Assembly (NCBI GenBank): GCA_018436095.1 | Contig: JAHDMJ010000001.1 | Coordinates: 186,001-250,000, forward strand | Length of the DNA: 64,000 nucleotides | Origin: Clostridia bacterium | GTDB taxonomy: Bacteria; Bacillota; Peptococcia; DRI-13; UBA5745 | Reading direction: 5' to 3' | Part shown: piece by piece, positions 15,479 through 23,338 of the stretch | How positions within the stretch are numbered: position 1 is the first letter of the stretch | How the letters are laid out: every line of letters begins with the position of its first letter | Made by a program: the position numbers and the translations under genes | The notes under the pieces: generated by a model | Databases searched by the model: none | Told to the model about the DNA's origin: nothing | Seen by the model: the letters and a program-made list of their open reading frames with translations, nothing else

Positions 15479-15805
15479 ATTAAACTTGGTGTTTATGCTT
15501 AATTTATTGGTACAATAATTAGCTTATTACTTGATAACTCTATCTTAAATACGGGGTTCAATATTATTAGCATGATTAAAAATATGTTTAATTTGCTTTT
15601 TGGATAGTTCTATTTTTTAGGCAATTGGTCCTATTCTACTTTGTAATATTCATGCTGAACAACAATCAATTAATTTTACAATGGATAGATAGGGCATCTT
15701 CAGAAACTCCGGAAAGCCCAACATTGTAGTGATTATAGACTACAACAACCACCAAATCCCTTAGAAGAAAAACGAAAATAACTACTATTATTGGCTTTAA
15801 GTAAC
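15479..15805. other. Gene-free junction between spoIIQ and island A
   Basis: A very A+T-rich stretch with no convincing reading frame, no tRNA and no clear repeat matching the other end of island A (22688-23338). It marks the change from G+C-rich core codon use to A+T-rich island genes. It may hold the spoIIQ promoter, but I could not identify a sigma-F box with confidence. Confidence 0.5.
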
Positions 15806-17710
15806 TTATTTCCTACTAAAGCTACCTAAGAAAAAACCTGCTATTTCTGGTGACTGTTTTATAAATAAATCCTCAACACCAATTTTTGAATAGAAATTTG
15901 TAAACTCACTCGTTATTTGCTGAAAATACCTCTCAGAAAGCCGATATGGCCGCAGATATTCTGCAAAAGAGTTCTTATCAGATGTTTTAAGATCAAATTG
16001 TATCATTTCATGAAACTTCCATTTAACACAAATCACTTGATCCTCGTTCTCAGGATGGGGGATAATTGAAATGTGTTCGCTATCCTTTTTAAATTTATCA
16101 TTATAGTTATTCTGTACCTCTCCCTTAATATAGCTAACAATATAGTCAACTTTCTGAGGGCGAAACAACTGGCACGCAGGCAATATACAAATTAAAAATT
16201 CCAAAGACCCATCGGACTTCTTTTTATATAATATATCTCCTTGAAAAAATTTATTTTCCAATTTGCAAACGCATGTTTCTTTAATCCTTCCGATTTCATC
16301 GTGCTCTATAGATAATGCAATTTCAGAAGGAGTCTTCCTATTTTGATAATGATTCATTTGTAGCGCAGATAACAAATGACTGATTGACACATCTACAGTT
16401 TCATCGCTAATCAACATTAAAAATAATGACGCCGCTTTTTTTAATGTATTTTTTACAATTTCGTTTTTTGTTTTCAGTATCCCTTCTTCAATTTCTTTTT
16501 TAATACTTGGAGTTTTACTCTGCAGTTCTTTTCTTTTAGCCTTTAAATCAAAATCATTCCACCATTTACTTTCTATTTCCTGCCGATTGAAACACAATGC
16601 CTTTTCAACCATTTTACTGCAGAAGCTATTTAAACTATTGCTCCAATTCGACGGAGACGGATCTATTTCTGACAACCATTGTTTCATATCTGCAACAGGA
16701 AATTGTCCTAAAAGTTCAAATACCTTTTTATTCTCCTTATCACTTCTAGCTTGCATTATAATCTTTGCTTTAGTTAATTTGTCCTGAAGCTTTTCATCTG
16801 CAATTTGACTAAGATCAATTAGTTTATGAATTCGATGCTCATAAAGATTTTCAACTATGCTGAAATCACATTGGATCTCTTCATGTACATTATTTGTTAC
16901 TAAGTTTCTAATCAATTCGGTATTATCATTATATTGAACTCCAGAACTCTCCATTTGCATTAATAAGATAGAATCAAACGGGTGAGAAAATTTATTGAGT
17001 AAATAGCCGGTCTTTTCTTCTAATTTTAAAAGCATATCAAAAAAGGCTATTGGAAAGAATCCAAAGTATTTCAATAACGTCTCCAAATAAGCTTCAAGCA
17101 GTGAGCCTGCATCAAAATCAGACTTTTTACAAATTAATACTATTGAATGATTCTTTAATCCATATACAAATTTTTTTCCATTATATTCCTCATCTATAAA
17201 TTTTGTTATAATTTCTTTTTTTATAAAATCATTTTTTGCACCTTCTGCATCTGATGTATATATAACTAAAAGCTTCATCTGATCTGAATATTCCGTTGCA
17301 CTTAATACATCTGCCGCAGTATATGAAATACCTGGCTCTCTCAAATCACTTAATTGCCAGTCAATAACAATCAGTCTTGAAGATTTTATACTCGCCTCTA
17401 TATAAGGTTTGTCCTCTACACCTGAGTATTTGACTGGCAATAGTTTAATTTGAGGGTAGGTTCTCTGCATTTTTTCAATGAGAAGTGACAGACTATCTAT
17501 CTCAATATTCGTATCAACTTCAGCACTCTCTATATCGCTTTTTATCACTCTACGTCTAGAACGACTAGGAATTTGAATATCATCTCTCTCAGGAGCTTCC
17601 CCAGCAAGTGATAGACCGAATTTATCATCTATGTATACAATAGTATTTAAATACTTCCTTAAAATCACTTTTAAATTCTCTCGACTTTCACTTATATTCT
17701 GTGTTGTCAT
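15806..17710 (-). CDS. Receiver-like protein, partner of the dual-ATPase kinase
   Basis: Protein of 634 residues. The first 170 look like a response-regulator receiver: acidic pair Asp28-Asp29 at the end of strand VYIDD, predicted phospho-acceptor Asp117 in LIVIDWQLSD, then LLVIYTS with the switch Thr/Ser. A basic, variable insertion (about residues 40-60) separates the acidic pair from the rest. The remaining 460 residues are mostly helical, with coiled-coil stretches (KSKTPSIKKEIEEGILKTK area), and resemble no output domain I know. ATG 17710 has GAGGTG 6 bases upstream and starts 1 base after the kinase stop, so expression is coupled. It may be the effector or adaptor of the island A system. 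Confidence 0.65.
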   Translation of the reverse strand: MTTQNISESRENLKVILRKYLNTIVYIDDKFGLSLAGEAPERDDIQIPSRSRRRVIKSDIESAEVDTNIEIDSLSLLIEKMQRTYPQIKLLPVKYSGVEDKPYIEASIKSSRLIVIDWQLSDLREPGISYTAADVLSATEYSDQMKLLVIYTSDAEGAKNDFIKKEIITKFIDEEYNGKKFVYGLKNHSIVLICKKSDFDAGSLLEAYLETLLKYFGFFPIAFFDMLLKLEEKTGYLLNKFSHPFDSILLMQMESSGVQYNDNTELIRNLVTNNVHEEIQCDFSIVENLYEHRIHKLIDLSQIADEKLQDKLTKAKIIMQARSDKENKKVFELLGQFPVADMKQWLSEIDPSPSNWSNSLNSFCSKMVEKALCFNRQEIESKWWNDFDLKAKRKELQSKTPSIKKEIEEGILKTKNEIVKNTLKKAASLFLMLISDETVDVSISHLLSALQMNHYQNRKTPSEIALSIEHDEIGRIKETCVCKLENKFFQGDILYKKKSDGSLEFLICILPACQLFRPQKVDYIVSYIKGEVQNNYNDKFKKDSEHISIIPHPENEDQVICVKWKFHEMIQFDLKTSDKNSFAEYLRPYRLSERYFQQITSEFTNFYSKIGVEDLFIKQSPEIAGFFLGSFSRK

Positions 17711-17711
17711 A

Positions 17712-20700
17712 TCACTCACCTCGTTCAATCAATGTTTCAATTTGAGAAAATCTTATTCGCAAACAAGCTCCATCCAGAATCTTGAAGTTATCTGATTGCA
17801 CTGCATCAATAGAAAAGCCCTGCGATTCTACAACTTTTTTTGCTATTGTTAATCCCAATCCTCGTCCATCAGATTTCAAAGAGAAAAACGGATCAAAAAT
17901 CTTCTTTAAAAACTTTGTCGGTATACCTGGCCCTGAATCCTCTATATATAAAGAATTTCTCTCTTTCACAAAATGAAACATAATTATTCGCTCTTCTCTA
18001 TCGGTTAACCAATAAATAGAGTTATAAATAATGTTAGATAAGACCGGATATATTTTTGAAAGTGAGAGCTCTATAATAACATCCTCAGGTATTTTGTTCA
18101 TAAATCTTATTTTATTGCTAATTATCCGGCTTTCGAAAAAGTTATAGAGATCATTAATCATTTTTTTAAGCAAAATGGGCTTCTTATATAAACTTCTACT
18201 TCTGTACATTGGCGAAAGCTGATTCTGCCTTTCTGATATTGCTCGAAATCCAACCTCAATTTGTTTCAACAGGTATTTACCTTCTGAATTAAGAGGTTCA
18301 TATCTCATTTGTTTTATTGCGTCAAATACATTCGTAAATAATTGGTTAAACTCATGATTTACAATTTCAGCTGACAAACCAAGATTAGCTAATTCTGAAT
18401 ATACTTCAATTTGATTTGTTAGTTCAATATTCTTTTCTTTCAGCGATCCAATTAACTCTTCAGTTTCTTGTCCATAATTACTTTGCATATAACTGATAAG
18501 CAACTTTATTTTTTTATTCAAATGATCGAATTGATACTCAATTGCGTTTATAGCAGATATATAGTGATCTTCAGCTTGTTTATTACATTTAGAAAGTTCT
18601 TCATATAACTTGCGACCTTCAGAAGCAAAATAGGAAGGTTTATTATCTAATAGATATTCACATTTATTTTGCAGAATAGCGATATCCTTTAAAAGGTCAT
18701 TCGTATTTTTTTTATATAATTTATCTATTGAATTAACAGCAATATTTTTCATATCGTTCTTAATTGAGGCTATAATTTCTATAGAAGGTATTGTCTCTTT
18801 TTCTCTTTGCGAATAATAATTATGCAGTTCTTCTGAAAAGGCATACAGCTTATTTTTGAAGCCATTTATATCTTCAAGCAGATCTTTAATATATCTTTCA
18901 GGAGATACAGACAGGTTCAATTCTATTTCTCTTAAATGATTATTAATAAGGTTTGCTATTTGGTTTTGTTCCTTCTGAGCGAAAGCTTCTAATTTAGCTT
19001 GTGTATCTGTCACAAAATCCTGTATGGAAGCATTATGTATTTCAATGTTCTCCAATAATTCTTCTTTAATATCAGATTTATATCTTGGATTAACAGTAAT
19101 CATGTGATTTTTTGATTGAATAATCAGTCGCCTTATGCATAGTAATTCATCTGCCATTTGAACTGAGATTTCATTTAGTTCAGAATACTTAATATCTGGA
19201 TAGATTTTATACTTCTTCATAAAGGAGGTAATATTATCAATTATATTGTTTTTAGCTCTAATGAATAAGTTTTCAGAATTTTTATATTGTATAGTTAAAT
19301 CCTTAATATATTGAAGCACTTGTTTTTTTTCTTCTTTTTCAGCCCTGGTTCGACGCTCTTCTTGTTCAGCCTTTTCATTATTATAATTTACATAACTTAA
19401 ACGCAATCTTTTTGAATCAGAAGTAGCACTAGTTACATACTCTTTTGCAATTCGTATTAATAGATTTTGTAATGTAGTTAAAAAATAAAAGTACTGCTCA
19501 TTTTCAATCAATCCTTCTCGACTTGACTTATCCTCTAATAGCGGATTATTTTCAGAAGATATATCAATTCTACCAAACATATTTCTATGACTAAACAGAT
19601 ATTCGCCAGCAGATAAAGTACGCCTTTTCTCCATTCCTAAGAAATCATTTTCAACCTCACCATAAGGAAGGATACGAACATTATCTCGATATACTGCAAC
19701 ACCACCACTTACTGACATTTTTCTTTTAATTTGATCATATTCTTCGGGTGTAAGACCACTATTTTTACGCATAAGTTCAACATGACAAAATTTTATGTTA
19801 AATCTGCCACAATCAGATTTTTTCCAATCTTTAATTCCTGCGGTCACTTCTAAACCTGCTTTTAACTCTTTATTACATTCATTTAGCAATTTTTCATCTG
19901 CATTACGTGCATCAAGCTTCCCATAGAATTTACCATGTTCTATATATCCCTCAATTTTTAAGTCGAAATTTTTAAAATCTTGCTCATTATAGTCATAATT
20001 AAATTCTTTAATAGTATTATTATAAAAAACTTCAACAACAAAATCATTATCAACATTTTGAAAATCAGAAATGAAAGATGCTAACCTGTCATAGTTTTTG
20101 CCATCCATGGTATCAGTATTAGTGTCTCTATTTAGTGGAGACAGATAACTATCCCAATTTTCAGTAAGGCTAGATATAAAAATTACAGTCCCTTGGGATT
20201 TATAATTCTCAATAAATCTACATACATCTGTTATAACTGAAATTGGAAAAGTAAGTTCTTCTATTTGATTAGATATAATATCTCTTAATTTACTATATTG
20301 TTTATCTTGCCATGCAGAATGAATTAAATTCTGCTTCTGATATTGAATAAGAGCTGTAAGCCTGTTATTTAAATCATTAATATCAAAATCATATGATGTC
20401 GGAATAATAACATCTTCTATCATTAACAAGGGATTATCAAATATATTCCAGTTAAGGAATAACATATTCCACTTACTATTCGCTTTTTTTGAAATTATAA
20501 TCGTTTGTTGACCTAGTTTTGCAACTGCAAGACGCCCGATTCCTTTCTCACCCATAAGGGTCCTTCCTTTTGGCGTTTTTTCATATTTACTTATTTTTTT
20601 AGACTCAGTACCTAATATAAGCCATTTATTCTCGAAATCAAAAGCATTCATACCACATCCTGTATCATATATTAGAATATATGGATTCTTTTCGGCAGTG

Positions 20701-20837
20701 TTAAATTCAACTCGCAGTATTTCTGCATCTGCGTCGTAAGAATTTTTCATAATCTCCGATAATGCGGTTATACTATCTCTGATCTGTTTTTTGCCAAGTA
20801 ATTCAATTGCCCTAGCCTTAGTTTTAAAACTACCCAT
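17712..20837 (-). CDS. Dual GHKL ATPase: Hsp90/MORC-like N-terminus plus histidine-kinase C-terminus
   Basis: Protein of 1041 residues with two Bergerat-fold ATPase domains. The N-terminal one (about 15-480) has N-box Glu28/Asn32 (SEIMKNSYDADA), G1 Asp58 (YDTGCGM) and G2 GEKGIGR (96-102), as in Hsp90/MutL/MORC proteins. The middle (about 490-800) is long coiled coil. The C-terminal part has an H-box with His828 (IVNHEFNQLF), a second G1 Asp967 (IEDSGPGIP), an F-box IFDPFF and G2 GRGLGL (991-996), as in sensor histidine kinases. No membrane segment or classical sensor domain is seen; the N-terminal ATPase may itself sense DNA or ligand. It sits one base before the receiver-like gene and near dcm and vsr. 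MORC-like ATPases in restriction operons are a known theme. Confidence 0.78.
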   Translation of the reverse strand: MGSFKTKARAIELLGKKQIRDSITALSEIMKNSYDADAEILRVEFNTAEKNPYILIYDTGCGMNAFDFENKWLILGTESKKISKYEKTPKGRTLMGEKGIGRLAVAKLGQQTIIISKKANSKWNMLFLNWNIFDNPLLMIEDVIIPTSYDFDINDLNNRLTALIQYQKQNLIHSAWQDKQYSKLRDIISNQIEELTFPISVITDVCRFIENYKSQGTVIFISSLTENWDSYLSPLNRDTNTDTMDGKNYDRLASFISDFQNVDNDFVVEVFYNNTIKEFNYDYNEQDFKNFDLKIEGYIEHGKFYGKLDARNADEKLLNECNKELKAGLEVTAGIKDWKKSDCGRFNIKFCHVELMRKNSGLTPEEYDQIKRKMSVSGGVAVYRDNVRILPYGEVENDFLGMEKRRTLSAGEYLFSHRNMFGRIDISSENNPLLEDKSSREGLIENEQYFYFLTTLQNLLIRIAKEYVTSATSDSKRLRLSYVNYNNEKAEQEERRTRAEKEEKKQVLQYIKDLTIQYKNSENLFIRAKNNIIDNITSFMKKYKIYPDIKYSELNEISVQMADELLCIRRLIIQSKNHMITVNPRYKSDIKEELLENIEIHNASIQDFVTDTQAKLEAFAQKEQNQIANLINNHLREIELNLSVSPERYIKDLLEDINGFKNKLYAFSEELHNYYSQREKETIPSIEIIASIKNDMKNIAVNSIDKLYKKNTNDLLKDIAILQNKCEYLLDNKPSYFASEGRKLYEELSKCNKQAEDHYISAINAIEYQFDHLNKKIKLLISYMQSNYGQETEELIGSLKEKNIELTNQIEVYSELANLGLSAEIVNHEFNQLFTNVFDAIKQMRYEPLNSEGKYLLKQIEVGFRAISERQNQLSPMYRSRSLYKKPILLKKMINDLYNFFESRIISNKIRFMNKIPEDVIIELSLSKIYPVLSNIIYNSIYWLTDREERIIMFHFVKERNSLYIEDSGPGIPTKFLKKIFDPFFSLKSDGRGLGLTIAKKVVESQGFSIDAVQSDNFKILDGACLRIRFSQIETLIERGE

Positions 20838-20868
20838 ACTGACTCCTCCTGATCATTGAGGTGATAAT

Positions 20869-21219
20869 ATGATGCGTAATATACCAAAATTCCTTTGTTT
20901 CTTATGTATGAAATGGCAATCAGTACCCTTATCTAATTGCTACCACGCATTTAATGAAGATATTACTCATCTATATTGTTCTACATGCAATAGCTGGATT
21001 CCTGTAAAAAACACTAGTTTGTTTACAGGGAAACAATATATTATTAAGCATTGTCATTATCCCTCGATTATTAATAATGATTGTTCTCAATTGAATATAG
21101 TCTTCCAGGGGAATAATCTGGATGCACTCCAAAGGGTTTGCGATAATTACAATAATACTCCCTTCTACTCTTTTGAAAATGCATATTTAGATTATTGGCA
21201 GTACATTAATAATTCTTGA
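20869..21219 (+). CDS. Small zinc-ribbon protein, divergent in island A
   Basis: Protein of 116 residues on the opposite strand to its neighbours. Cys10-x2-Cys13 and Cys37-x2-Cys40 form a plausible zinc ribbon; further Cys/His follow (HCHYP). The rest is polar, with a Tyr/Asn-rich C-terminus. GAGGTG lies 5 bases before ATG 20869, so I take it as a real gene although I know no family. It shares its upstream region (31 bases) with the dual-ATPase gene, and its end overlaps the 3' end of dcm by 14 bases. It could be a small regulator or DNA-binding component; that is inference. Confidence 0.6.
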   Translation: MMRNIPKFLCFLCMKWQSVPLSNCYHAFNEDITHLYCSTCNSWIPVKNTSLFTGKQYIIKHCHYPSIINNDCSQLNIVFQGNNLDALQRVCDNYNNTPFYSFENAYLDYWQYINNS

Positions 21220-22252
21220 CCATTGCTTTACGCCGCAGTTGTACAATATAACGGCCTAAAGCGTGTGCCATTTGCACAGGCACAGCATTTCCTACTTGGC
21301 GACATATTGATTGCGGGGCACCATAAAAAATGTAATCATCATCAAAACCTTGAAGCTTAGCAGCCTCCCTCATTGTAATAGCACGATCCTGTTCAGGATG
21401 CCCATATCGACCATTTGATATACTGCAGCATTTCGCAGTAAGAGTTGGAGCAACTCCATCCCACCTCATCCTTCCATAAACGTCAGTGTGTCCTGTATAA
21501 TCACCTCGATGACAATCTAGTATTAGCCTATCAGGCCAATCCGTTCTACTCCCCCCTGAGTGCGGAGTATTTATCAAACGTTCTAAATTTATCGCTGAAA
21601 GTTTAGCTGCTTGGTGATTAGGCAGGATCGGGTGGGTTCCACCGGCAACAATATGAGGATAATTACCAATTGCTTGCCGGACACTAGTAAACGCTAAGAG
21701 GTTTTTACCATGTGTCTTTTCAGGAAGCCCTGGCTGTATGTACCTGGAAGCAATTAAGATAAATCGACGTCTATTTTGCGGGACACCATAATGTTTTGCA
21801 TTTACTGTACCATAGTGATAGTAATAGCTGTTTCTTTGCAAGATCTCTATGAATCTTGCAAAAACATCAGCTCCTTTTGTCTCCAATCCAGGAACATTTT
21901 CCAATAACACAAATCCCGGTTTAACTTCGTCAATAATCCTACCGAATGAATCTAATAATGTTCTATCATTATGTACTGTCAGACTTTTGCGTTGGCTGCT
22001 AAATGGTTGGCACGGAGCACATCCAGCCAATAGTAGATTTTGTTTATTCCACCTAAGATTCGGGTAAATTTCATTAAGCGTTTTTTTATTTATATTTCTG
22101 ACATCGCTACATATAAACTGCGCACGATGATTTTCCTCATATGTACGTCGATAATCTTCAACTATATCAAATCCGGCTAAAACCCGAATCCCAGCTAATT
22201 CTAATCCCTTAGAAAGTCCGCCTCCACCACAAAAAAAATCAAATGCTATCAT
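21206..22252 (-). CDS. dcm: DNA (cytosine-5) methyltransferase
   Basis: Complete C5 methylase (348 residues) that transfers a methyl group from SAM to cytosine in a short recognition site. Motifs in order: I (FDFFCGGGGLSKGLELAG, residues 4-21), IV with catalytic Cys81 (APCQPFS), VI (LLENV, 116-120), VIII (QNRRRFILIA), IX (REAAKLQGF) and X (QVGNAVP). Between VIII and IX lies a target-recognition region of about 100 residues whose specificity cannot be read. The vsr gene lies 6 bases upstream on the same strand, the usual pairing. No classical separate restriction enzyme gene is beside it. Confidence 0.93.
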   Translation of the reverse strand: MIAFDFFCGGGGLSKGLELAGIRVLAGFDIVEDYRRTYEENHRAQFICSDVRNINKKTLNEIYPNLRWNKQNLLLAGCAPCQPFSSQRKSLTVHNDRTLLDSFGRIIDEVKPGFVLLENVPGLETKGADVFARFIEILQRNSYYYHYGTVNAKHYGVPQNRRRFILIASRYIQPGLPEKTHGKNLLAFTSVRQAIGNYPHIVAGGTHPILPNHQAAKLSAINLERLINTPHSGGSRTDWPDRLILDCHRGDYTGHTDVYGRMRWDGVAPTLTAKCCSISNGRYGHPEQDRAITMREAAKLQGFDDDYIFYGAPQSICRQVGNAVPVQMAHALGRYIVQLRRKAMVKNY

Positions 22253-22258
22253 TCAAAT

Positions 22259-22687
22259 TCATCCCTGCTCTTCTATGTTTAATAATTGATTATATAATTC
22301 ACAAAGCCTTTTTTCTTTAATAAAGGGTTTCAGTTCACACTCCCAAATAATAATAACTCTCCAACCTTGACTTTTTAGTTCAGTTATATTTTTCAGATCA
22401 CGTTTTTTATTGTTAGTAAGTTTCTCTCTCCAGAAGTCTTTATTATTGAGTGGCCAAGAAAATTTTGGACACCCTTCATGCACATGCCAGAAGCAGCCAT
22501 TTACAAAAATCACGGTTTTATACTTTGCCATCACAATATCAGGGCATCCCGGAAGACTCTTTATATTTTTTCTGTAACGGAATCCTTTACTAAATAGAAA
22601 TTTCCGCACACATTCTTCTGGTTTAGTTCCTTTATTCTTGACTTTTGACATATTATAACTACGGATTTCTTTCGAATGAACATCCAT
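22259..22687 (-). CDS. vsr: Very short patch repair endonuclease
   Basis: Endonuclease of 142 residues that nicks beside T:G mismatches arising by deamination of 5-methylcytosine. Conserved features are EIRSYNMSKVKNKGTKPE (recognition and Glu region, residues 7-24), LPGCPDIV with catalytic Asp50, VNGCFWHVHEGCP with His68 and probable zinc ligands, and RVIIIWECEL. It is first in the vsr-dcm pair and protects or complements the methylase. In restriction clusters with MORC-like ATPases, Vsr-type nucleases have also been proposed as the cutting component. Confidence 0.93.
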   Translation of the reverse strand: MDVHSKEIRSYNMSKVKNKGTKPEECVRKFLFSKGFRYRKNIKSLPGCPDIVMAKYKTVIFVNGCFWHVHEGCPKFSWPLNNKDFWREKLTNNKKRDLKNITELKSQGWRVIIIWECELKPFIKEKRLCELYNQLLNIEEQG

Positions 22688-22877
22688 GAGATCACCTCAT
22701 ATACTATAGCTTTCTCCTAATATATTGTATTTGGGATATCATAACAAATTGTGCCGATATTTCATAGCATTATTATCCAAATCATTTGTGAAGTACCGTG
22801 ATTTATTTATATAAATACATTATCCAATAATAATCCAACTCATTAACGATATCAATGATACCCTTAGCCATGATATT

Positions 22878-22909
22878 AAAAAAGAACCAGGCATGGAAGC
22901 CATTGCCTG
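22878..22909 (-). terminator. Terminator at the edge of the TOTE remnant
   Basis: CAGGCAATGG pairs with CCATGCCTG on the minus strand (22909-22888), followed by TTCTTTTTT. It lies just past the truncated reading frame ending at 22946 and is in the right direction for it. Confidence 0.7.
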
Positions 22910-22945
22910 ATTGTGATCGCGCAACCGCAATTGGGATACTTATTT

Positions 22946-23212
22946 TCATGCAAATACGTCCTCTCTGCCTCTGAATAATGACATGAACAAGTTGATTTTA
23001 TCTTGTGGTGGGCTGGCATTTGTTACTTGCCCAAAGGGATAAAGCTCTTCTGAGAAGAGATTGTCTGCTTCATCCTTGTGTTGCGCCACATCGCTAAATT
23101 TTGGCAACACTGATCCCAGCTGCTCTTTGTAACTCTCAATTTCGTTCCTCAGCAGCTTGTTTTCGTCCAGCAGCCTTTGATATTTTTCGTAAAGTTCTTC
23201 GTAGCCAATCAT
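22946..23212 (-). pseudogene. N-terminal remnant of a TOTE-type primase-helicase
   Basis: About 88 residues remain. They start with a coiled coil (YEELYEKYQRLLDENKLL) and end with PPQDKINLFMSLFRGREDVFA. The last segment is the characteristic start of the archaeo-eukaryotic primase domain of TOTE conflict-system proteins (KI-LF-SLFRGREDV-A). A stop codon follows immediately where hundreds of residues of primase, helicase and nuclease should continue, and the next bases do not resume the family in any frame I could read. It is a fossil of a second defence system in island A. Confidence 0.7.
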
Positions 23213-23338
23213 AACATGTACCACTTGCCCTGCATTCTACAACTATTGCTATTAATATATCATAGACTTGGGCATTCCGACAGATTCTGTATTTTTTTCT
23301 ATCATCCCCTATTCTTCCCAATCCTTCCTATTGCCAAC

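Follow-up and report, generated by a model that had tools for sequence, protein, structure and literature searches.

A predicted HEF_HK histidine kinase with a MORC-like input module and a co-evolving receiver partner in a low-GC island of a Clostridia bacterium

The closest described relatives of the locus presented here are the HEF_HK systems, whose HEF_HK and Response_reg_2 domains were defined computationally by Bellieny-Rabelo 2021 (PMC8011034). According to that study, the kinase and receiver genes are linked in 91.6% and have a C5 methyltransferase and Vsr in their neighbourhood; the group 1 architecture is the commonest type (174 of 222 proteins) and the only one reported for the Firmicutes members; and HATPase_c_3 was proposed as the sensor, with the family as a branch-off of paraMORC (PMC8011034). 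The family is widespread and strongly methyltransferase-linked, and in the literature searched we found no function-tested member, and no experimental work either on HEF_HK systems or on comparable kinases next to methylases or phosphorothioation genes. Bacterial MORC/paraMORC ATPases of restriction-modification (R-M) systems share with our locus the N-terminal GHKL plus transducer and the C5 methyltransferase and Vsr neighbours (Iyer 2008, PMC2292703), whereas our locus adds a histidine kinase core with a receiver partner, and its island is without a superfamily II helicase gene. In the Shedu protein VcSduA, which has an N-terminal GHKL module, mutation of the ATPase or of the nuclease abolishes the phage-defence activity (PMC12137116). 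VcSduA shows that a defence effector can be gated by a GHKL input module and is a precedent for such a module in phage defence; the likeness would lie in an N-terminal GHKL clamp as the regulatory input of a defence protein. The output there is a fused PD-(D/E)xK nuclease, while our locus has a kinase core and encodes the receiver as a protein of its own. Moreover in Detocs, a two-component phage defence, phosphorelay logic works in a defence setting, and this is its likeness to our locus as far as the general description of Detocs goes; we know of no MORC-type sensor module and no linked methyltransferase in it.

In the window, i.e. the whole stretch of 64,000 nucleotides that was analysed, the kinase (Table 1) has all three group 1 domains (PF13589, PF19191 and PF02518) in the right order, it is soluble, and a Response_reg_2 gene with an invariant acceptor Asp lies directly downstream, with the C5 methyltransferase and Vsr as neighbours. 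It differs from the described group 1 systems in its divergent Firmicutes sequence and in an extra Cys-rich ORF between the methyltransferase and the kinase. Since this type of system was described in 2021, the locus is a well-supported new member and not a new invention, and the view of a preliminary description of this DNA that the arrangement is unusual does not hold within its family, where it is that of the commonest HEF_HK type (PMC8011034). What is new here is the match to the MORC fold, the co-evolution of the pair while methyltransferases exchange, the conserved, divergent Cys-rich ORF, and the history of a hotspot from which a TOTE system was most likely displaced.

Table 1. Features of the HEF_HK locus and its surroundings, in positions of the window
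Feature	Position	Strand	Details
HEF_HK histidine-kinase-like protein	17712..20837	-	1041 aa; HATPase_c_3, coiled coil, HEF_HK, HATPase_c
MORC-like ATPase module, residues 7-479	19401..20819	-	MORC3 5ix2 match; pLDDT mostly 70-96
HATPase_c_3 core, residues 24-135	20433-20768	-	Pfam E 8.1e-18
Long helical/coiled-coil linker, residues 478-790	18468..19406	-	model secondary structure, pLDDT 50-87
HEF_HK (DHp-like) domain, residues 818-880	18198..18386	-	Pfam PF19191 E 6.9e-13
Predicted phospho-acceptor His828 codon	18354-18356	-	inside HEF_HK domain; 82/82 sequences
C-terminal HATPase_c (CA) domain, residues 928-1014	17796..18056	-	Pfam E 1.9e-15
Response_reg_2 partner	15806..17710	-	634 aa from ATG at 17710; PF19192 E 7.4e-8; RBS GAGGTGAG
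Receiver domain, residues 20-178; acceptor Asp117	17360-17362 (Asp117)	-	Pfam; 82/82
Cys-rich ORF	20869..21219	+	116 aa, CxxC pairs; RBS-like GAGGTGATAATATG / GAGGTGATA
C5-cytosine DNA methyltransferase	21206..22252	-	348 aa; PF00145 E 1.6e-54; APCQPFS, LENVPG, QNRRRF motifs
Vsr very-short-patch endonuclease	22259..22687	-	142 aa; PF03852 E 5.9e-32; TIGR00632 E 8.2e-42
Low-GC foreign island with kinase, receiver, methyltransferase, Vsr, Cys-rich ORF	15490..22874		7.4 kb; spoIIQ-like to spoIID
TOTE conflict system gene, broken 5' remnant	22876..23224	-	adjoins spoIID; homology to intact TOTE protein of sister genome G368

The preliminary description had read the kinase as one protein with two Bergerat/GHKL ATPase sites, an H-box with a phospho-acceptor His828 ahead of the second site, and no transmembrane, PAS or GAF sensor. 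Its ORF coordinates, strand and residue numbers are all exact in the sequence, and each of these features is borne out: the matches to HATPase_c_3, HEF_HK and HATPase_c all exceed the curated Pfam cut-offs and are far beyond chance, the Pfam scan of the kinase finds neither PAS nor GAF, and no transmembrane segment is seen, the highest 19-residue Kyte-Doolittle mean being 1.31. A membrane sensor kinase was rejected for the lack of a transmembrane segment. The N-terminal ATP site carries DTGCGM at 58-63, beginning with Asp58, and GEKGIGR at 96-102; the H-box is NHEFNQL at 827-833; and the C-terminal site carries NIIYNS at 935-940, DSGPGI at 967-972, beginning with Asp967, and GRGLGL at 991-996. 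A chance match of these boxes is ruled out by the E-values together with the conservation. Moreover the A3 profile picks up ThkA (E 1.7e-19) as well as MutL/PMS2 (E about 1e-5), the latter with the N-terminus.

The structure of the full chain was predicted as a monomer by AlphaFold2 from 60 sequences (mean pLDDT 79.3, pTM 0.54), and the model consists of an N-terminal alpha/beta module (1-470, mostly of high confidence), long helices (478-790) and a CA domain (886-1035). Foldseek gives MORC3 as the top match (E 3.7e-10), and by VIA-align the model region 7-479 aligns to MORC3 5ix2 with Z 19.7 (337 aligned, rmsd 4.3), followed by SMCHD1 (Z 18.5) and MORC4 (Z 17.4); the N-terminal GHKL plus transducer (S5) fold of the MORC/paraMORC class is thus present. 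Hsp90-family chains come close behind MORC3, namely Trap1 (Z 17.8) and Hsc82 (Z 17.3). As MORC3 scores highest in the fold comparison, the input module is best named MORC-like, and an Hsp90-type chaperone was rejected for the N-terminus on these scores and on the R-M context. In fact the N-terminal module had been described as a chaperone-like clamp used as input, of which a clamp-type GHKL at the input position stands, while its nearest fold is that of MORC and the Hsp90 family scores lower. At the other end, the C-terminal 230 residues match complete DHp+CA kinase cores (4gcz Z 20.2, 2c2a Z 18.0); for the CA domain, the ThkA catalytic domain aligns with Z 19.0 over 145 residues (rmsd 2.2). 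With this DHp and CA fold and with H, N, G1, F and G2 boxes, the protein has the fold and the sequence boxes of a histidine kinase. DHp helix 1 is the long helix 734-844 including His828, helix 2 is 851-874, and the CA domain comes after; the pLDDT near 820-830, the surroundings of His828 included, is low, about 50. Access of His828 to the C-terminal ATP site was therefore judged through homology and not through monomer geometry.

Relatives of the kinase were drawn from 84,980 species genomes. A scan of the genome contigs with the single kinase sequence gave nothing, and an alignment query then yielded 80 loci; the loci were picked by two peptide patterns, both taken from the N-terminal half of an alignment of four sequences. 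In the N-terminal site, Asp58, G60, G62, G96, K98, G99, I100, G101 and R102 are invariant in the alignment of full-length sequences (82/82), where the columns within the two patterns are biased by the search. The C-terminal residues are unselected in this collection because both patterns lie in the N-terminal half, and here His828, N935, N939, G969, G991, G993 and G995 are again found in all 82 sequences, so that the lack of conservation of His828, which the preliminary description had named as a possible refutation, is not what we see. The residue after it, 829, is Glu in 75 and Asp in 7 of the 82, as expected of the H-box of HEF_HK group 1. The column of Asp967 has Asp in 77 sequences, the window kinase among them, and Asn in 5, and this replacement of the G1 Asp means that kinase activity may be altered in some copies. 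Both ATPase domains are found in all of 47 relatives scanned and HEF_HK in 46. The window kinase is 41-44% identical to that of three other loci (L010, L019 and L029) and about 25% to the proteobacterial members, by which sequence comparison it belongs to a divergent Firmicutes branch. Among 398 genomes sampled from the phylum, HEF_HK was found in the window's genome only, and none was found in the eight remaining genomes of its family.

The preliminary description had missed the receiver partner, as well as the island and the methyltransferase and Vsr genes on it. A single base lies between the stop codon of the kinase (17712-17714) and the receiver gene, whose ATG is at 17710. In the receiver-protein alignment D28 and D117 are invariant (82/82), and Asp29 and T152 are each conserved in 79 of 82; the N-terminus folds as a receiver with Z about 10. 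The model of this protein is mediocre (pLDDT 68.9, pTM 0.43), which limits the null result for the C-terminus in the Foldseek and VIA-align comparison, where matches such as PorX fall on the receiver domain only. For the C-terminal part of about 450 residues, profile searches of PDB sequences, Pfam and NCBIfam found no output domain. The best conserved positions there are G491, C508, P511, C513, L591, Y595, R609 (Lys in the window) and G611, and no nuclease motif is seen among the most conserved C-terminal columns. The window protein is 10-16% identical to most of its proteobacterial counterparts. When it was searched against plasmids by tblastn no match was obtained, and orthologues there were later found by profile; tblastn had missed them because they are 15-19% identical.

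Our results further revealed how constant this pair is across loci. Of the 80 genome loci, 78 have the receiver gene right behind the kinase gene, mostly with an overlap of a few bases; of the two others, one is fragmented (L020) and one lies at the end of a contig (L061). A C5 methyltransferase is a neighbour in 77 loci and Vsr in 33, and HNH or Mrr-type nuclease families recur near about 25 of 81 loci, with HNH_2, HNH and AspBHI/Mrr confirmed by one example each. Judged as a type II R-M system, the island in the window holds methyltransferase and Vsr, and no nuclease-like ORF other than Vsr was seen in it. The distance matrices of kinase and receiver correlate with r 0.84-0.91 in every pairing of their halves, whereas the methyltransferase distance correlates with that of kinase or receiver at r 0.43-0.53 (permuted maxima 0.14-0.31). 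From this difference kinase and receiver are taken as the constant core and the methyltransferases as exchangeable, which narrows the models for the system. PADLOC has no model for the kinase-receiver pair, and the promoter and terminator scans of the window stayed at shuffle level.

The small Cys-rich ORF lies between methyltransferase and kinase on the opposite strand, and 31 bases separate its start from the kinase start. A counterpart in the same place and orientation is found in Eubacterium (L019:6610-6957, minus strand; phmmer E 1.4e-8, 28% identity). Neither copy has a Pfam match, and the ORF has no match in plasmids and phages. In this branch of the Firmicutes it may serve as a regulator or form a fifth component, for which two copies are thin evidence.

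As for the surroundings, GC is about 28-40% across the gene set (about 30% for the island) against 50-58% outside. DNA homology to the sister genome G368 ends at 15489, before the spoIIQ-like gene, and restarts at 22875, before spoIID. In the sister genome the same spot encodes proteins of the AEP-TOTE/helicase/PLD, Schlafen AlbA_2, HNH and KilA-N types, and the spoIID-spoIIQ interval is therefore a defence hotspot, in which the genes of the island lie. The TOTE gene there is intact (L117:10938-13856; PF22548 E 3.2e-102), and the remnant in the window is 77% identical to its protein in residues 1-90 and 81% in residues 179-205. Most likely, as these alignments suggest, the island replaced one of the conflict systems at this spot and TOTE was displaced.

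Considering all this, the protein is probably a cytoplasmic MORC-type HEF_HK kinase, in which a DNA-clamp input would drive a His-Asp phosphorelay and so control a restriction or defence output. The N-terminal MORC-like ATPase would be the input: it would dimerise on ATP and most likely clamp DNA or a complex bound to DNA; through the long coiled coil this state would be relayed to the DHp/CA kinase core; the C-terminal ATPase core would phosphorylate His828, from which the phosphoryl would move to Asp117 of the downstream-encoded partner; and the phosphorylated partner would activate the restriction or defence output, with the linked C5 methyltransferase presumably marking self DNA and Vsr repairing deamination or nicking DNA. 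We count for this reading the TOTE, Schlafen, HNH and KilA-N content of the spot in the sister genome, the low-GC island and the kinase-receiver co-evolution, and against it the receiver C-terminus without a recognised domain and Vsr as the sole linked nuclease in the window. If the N-terminal module is a DNA clamp in control of the kinase, MORC-type DNA entrapment, as in eukaryotic silencing, would be joined with bacterial phosphorelay and with self/non-self recognition. More tentatively, the system could be a restriction-type immunity, where the MORC clamp senses DNA methylation and signals by the His-Asp phosphorelay to a stand-alone effector, the pair serving interchangeable methyltransferases; self/non-self would then be passed on by phosphorylation and not by a nuclease reading its own site.

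The C5 methyltransferase at 77 of the 80 loci could also mean that the pair is a control circuit for the expression of the neighbouring methyltransferase/Vsr unit, with no DNA restriction of its own. Transcription is the usual target of two-component logic, control of R-M systems was proposed by the 2021 authors (PMC8011034), and a purely transcriptional methyltransferase regulator would look similar from gene order alone. We nevertheless hold this to be unlikely, for a DNA-binding output domain is not recognisable in the receiver protein, and the free exchange of methyltransferases beside a constant pair fits mark-reading better than promoter tuning. R-M systems can behave as addiction modules, and the foreign composition and the narrow occurrence in its own phylum would suit an island that plays no part in phage defence and is a selfish or stability module, i.e. 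a modification system that punishes its own loss; the sister genome, however, has other conflict systems at the site, so that selection on this site resembles defence turnover, and such a module seems very improbable. Lastly, R-M systems that have Vsr and C5 methyltransferases include MORC/paraMORC ATPases (PMC2292703), the BbrUII/HgiDII family of restriction enzymes is matched by the N-terminus of the kinase (E 7.7e-18), and HNH or Mrr-type nuclease genes recur near some of the loci; the protein might then be a paraMORC restriction ATPase working with Vsr or an HNH nuclease, its kinase core a structural ATPase relic and His828 structural. This is rather doubtful, since a relic would not keep His828 and Asp117 both at 82/82 in co-evolving proteins, and the kinase half is kept without the N-terminal ATPase in 34 of 222 relatives (PMC8011034).

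Several variant loci were also observed. In Eubacterium plexicaudatum (L020:6998-11973) Vsr is intact, but several ORFs stand in place of the kinase and receiver genes, which resembles a decaying copy. A relative of the kinase gene is present in 561 of 5,426 E. coli genomes, and in the one E. coli locus inspected (strain PC-NDM34, adjoining ssrA, L118:9130-12598) a 572-aa kinase half with HEF_HK plus HATPase_c follows IS1 and adjoins the receiver gene, without N-terminal ATPase and without methyltransferase. Four plasmid loci (L005 to L008) encode shorter proteins with N-terminal HATPase_c_3 and C-terminal HATPase_c, in which the Pfam scan found no HEF_HK match for L005-L007; for the partner in L007 the receiver match is weak and stays below the cut-off (E 0.0036). 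All four are beside DNA modification genes, namely a class I SAM methyltransferase (L005), phosphorothioation-like genes (L006), an N6 methylase plus HNH (L007) and a site-specific methyltransferase (L008), and they possibly point to a broader class in which modification systems are coupled to GHKL-kinase modules.
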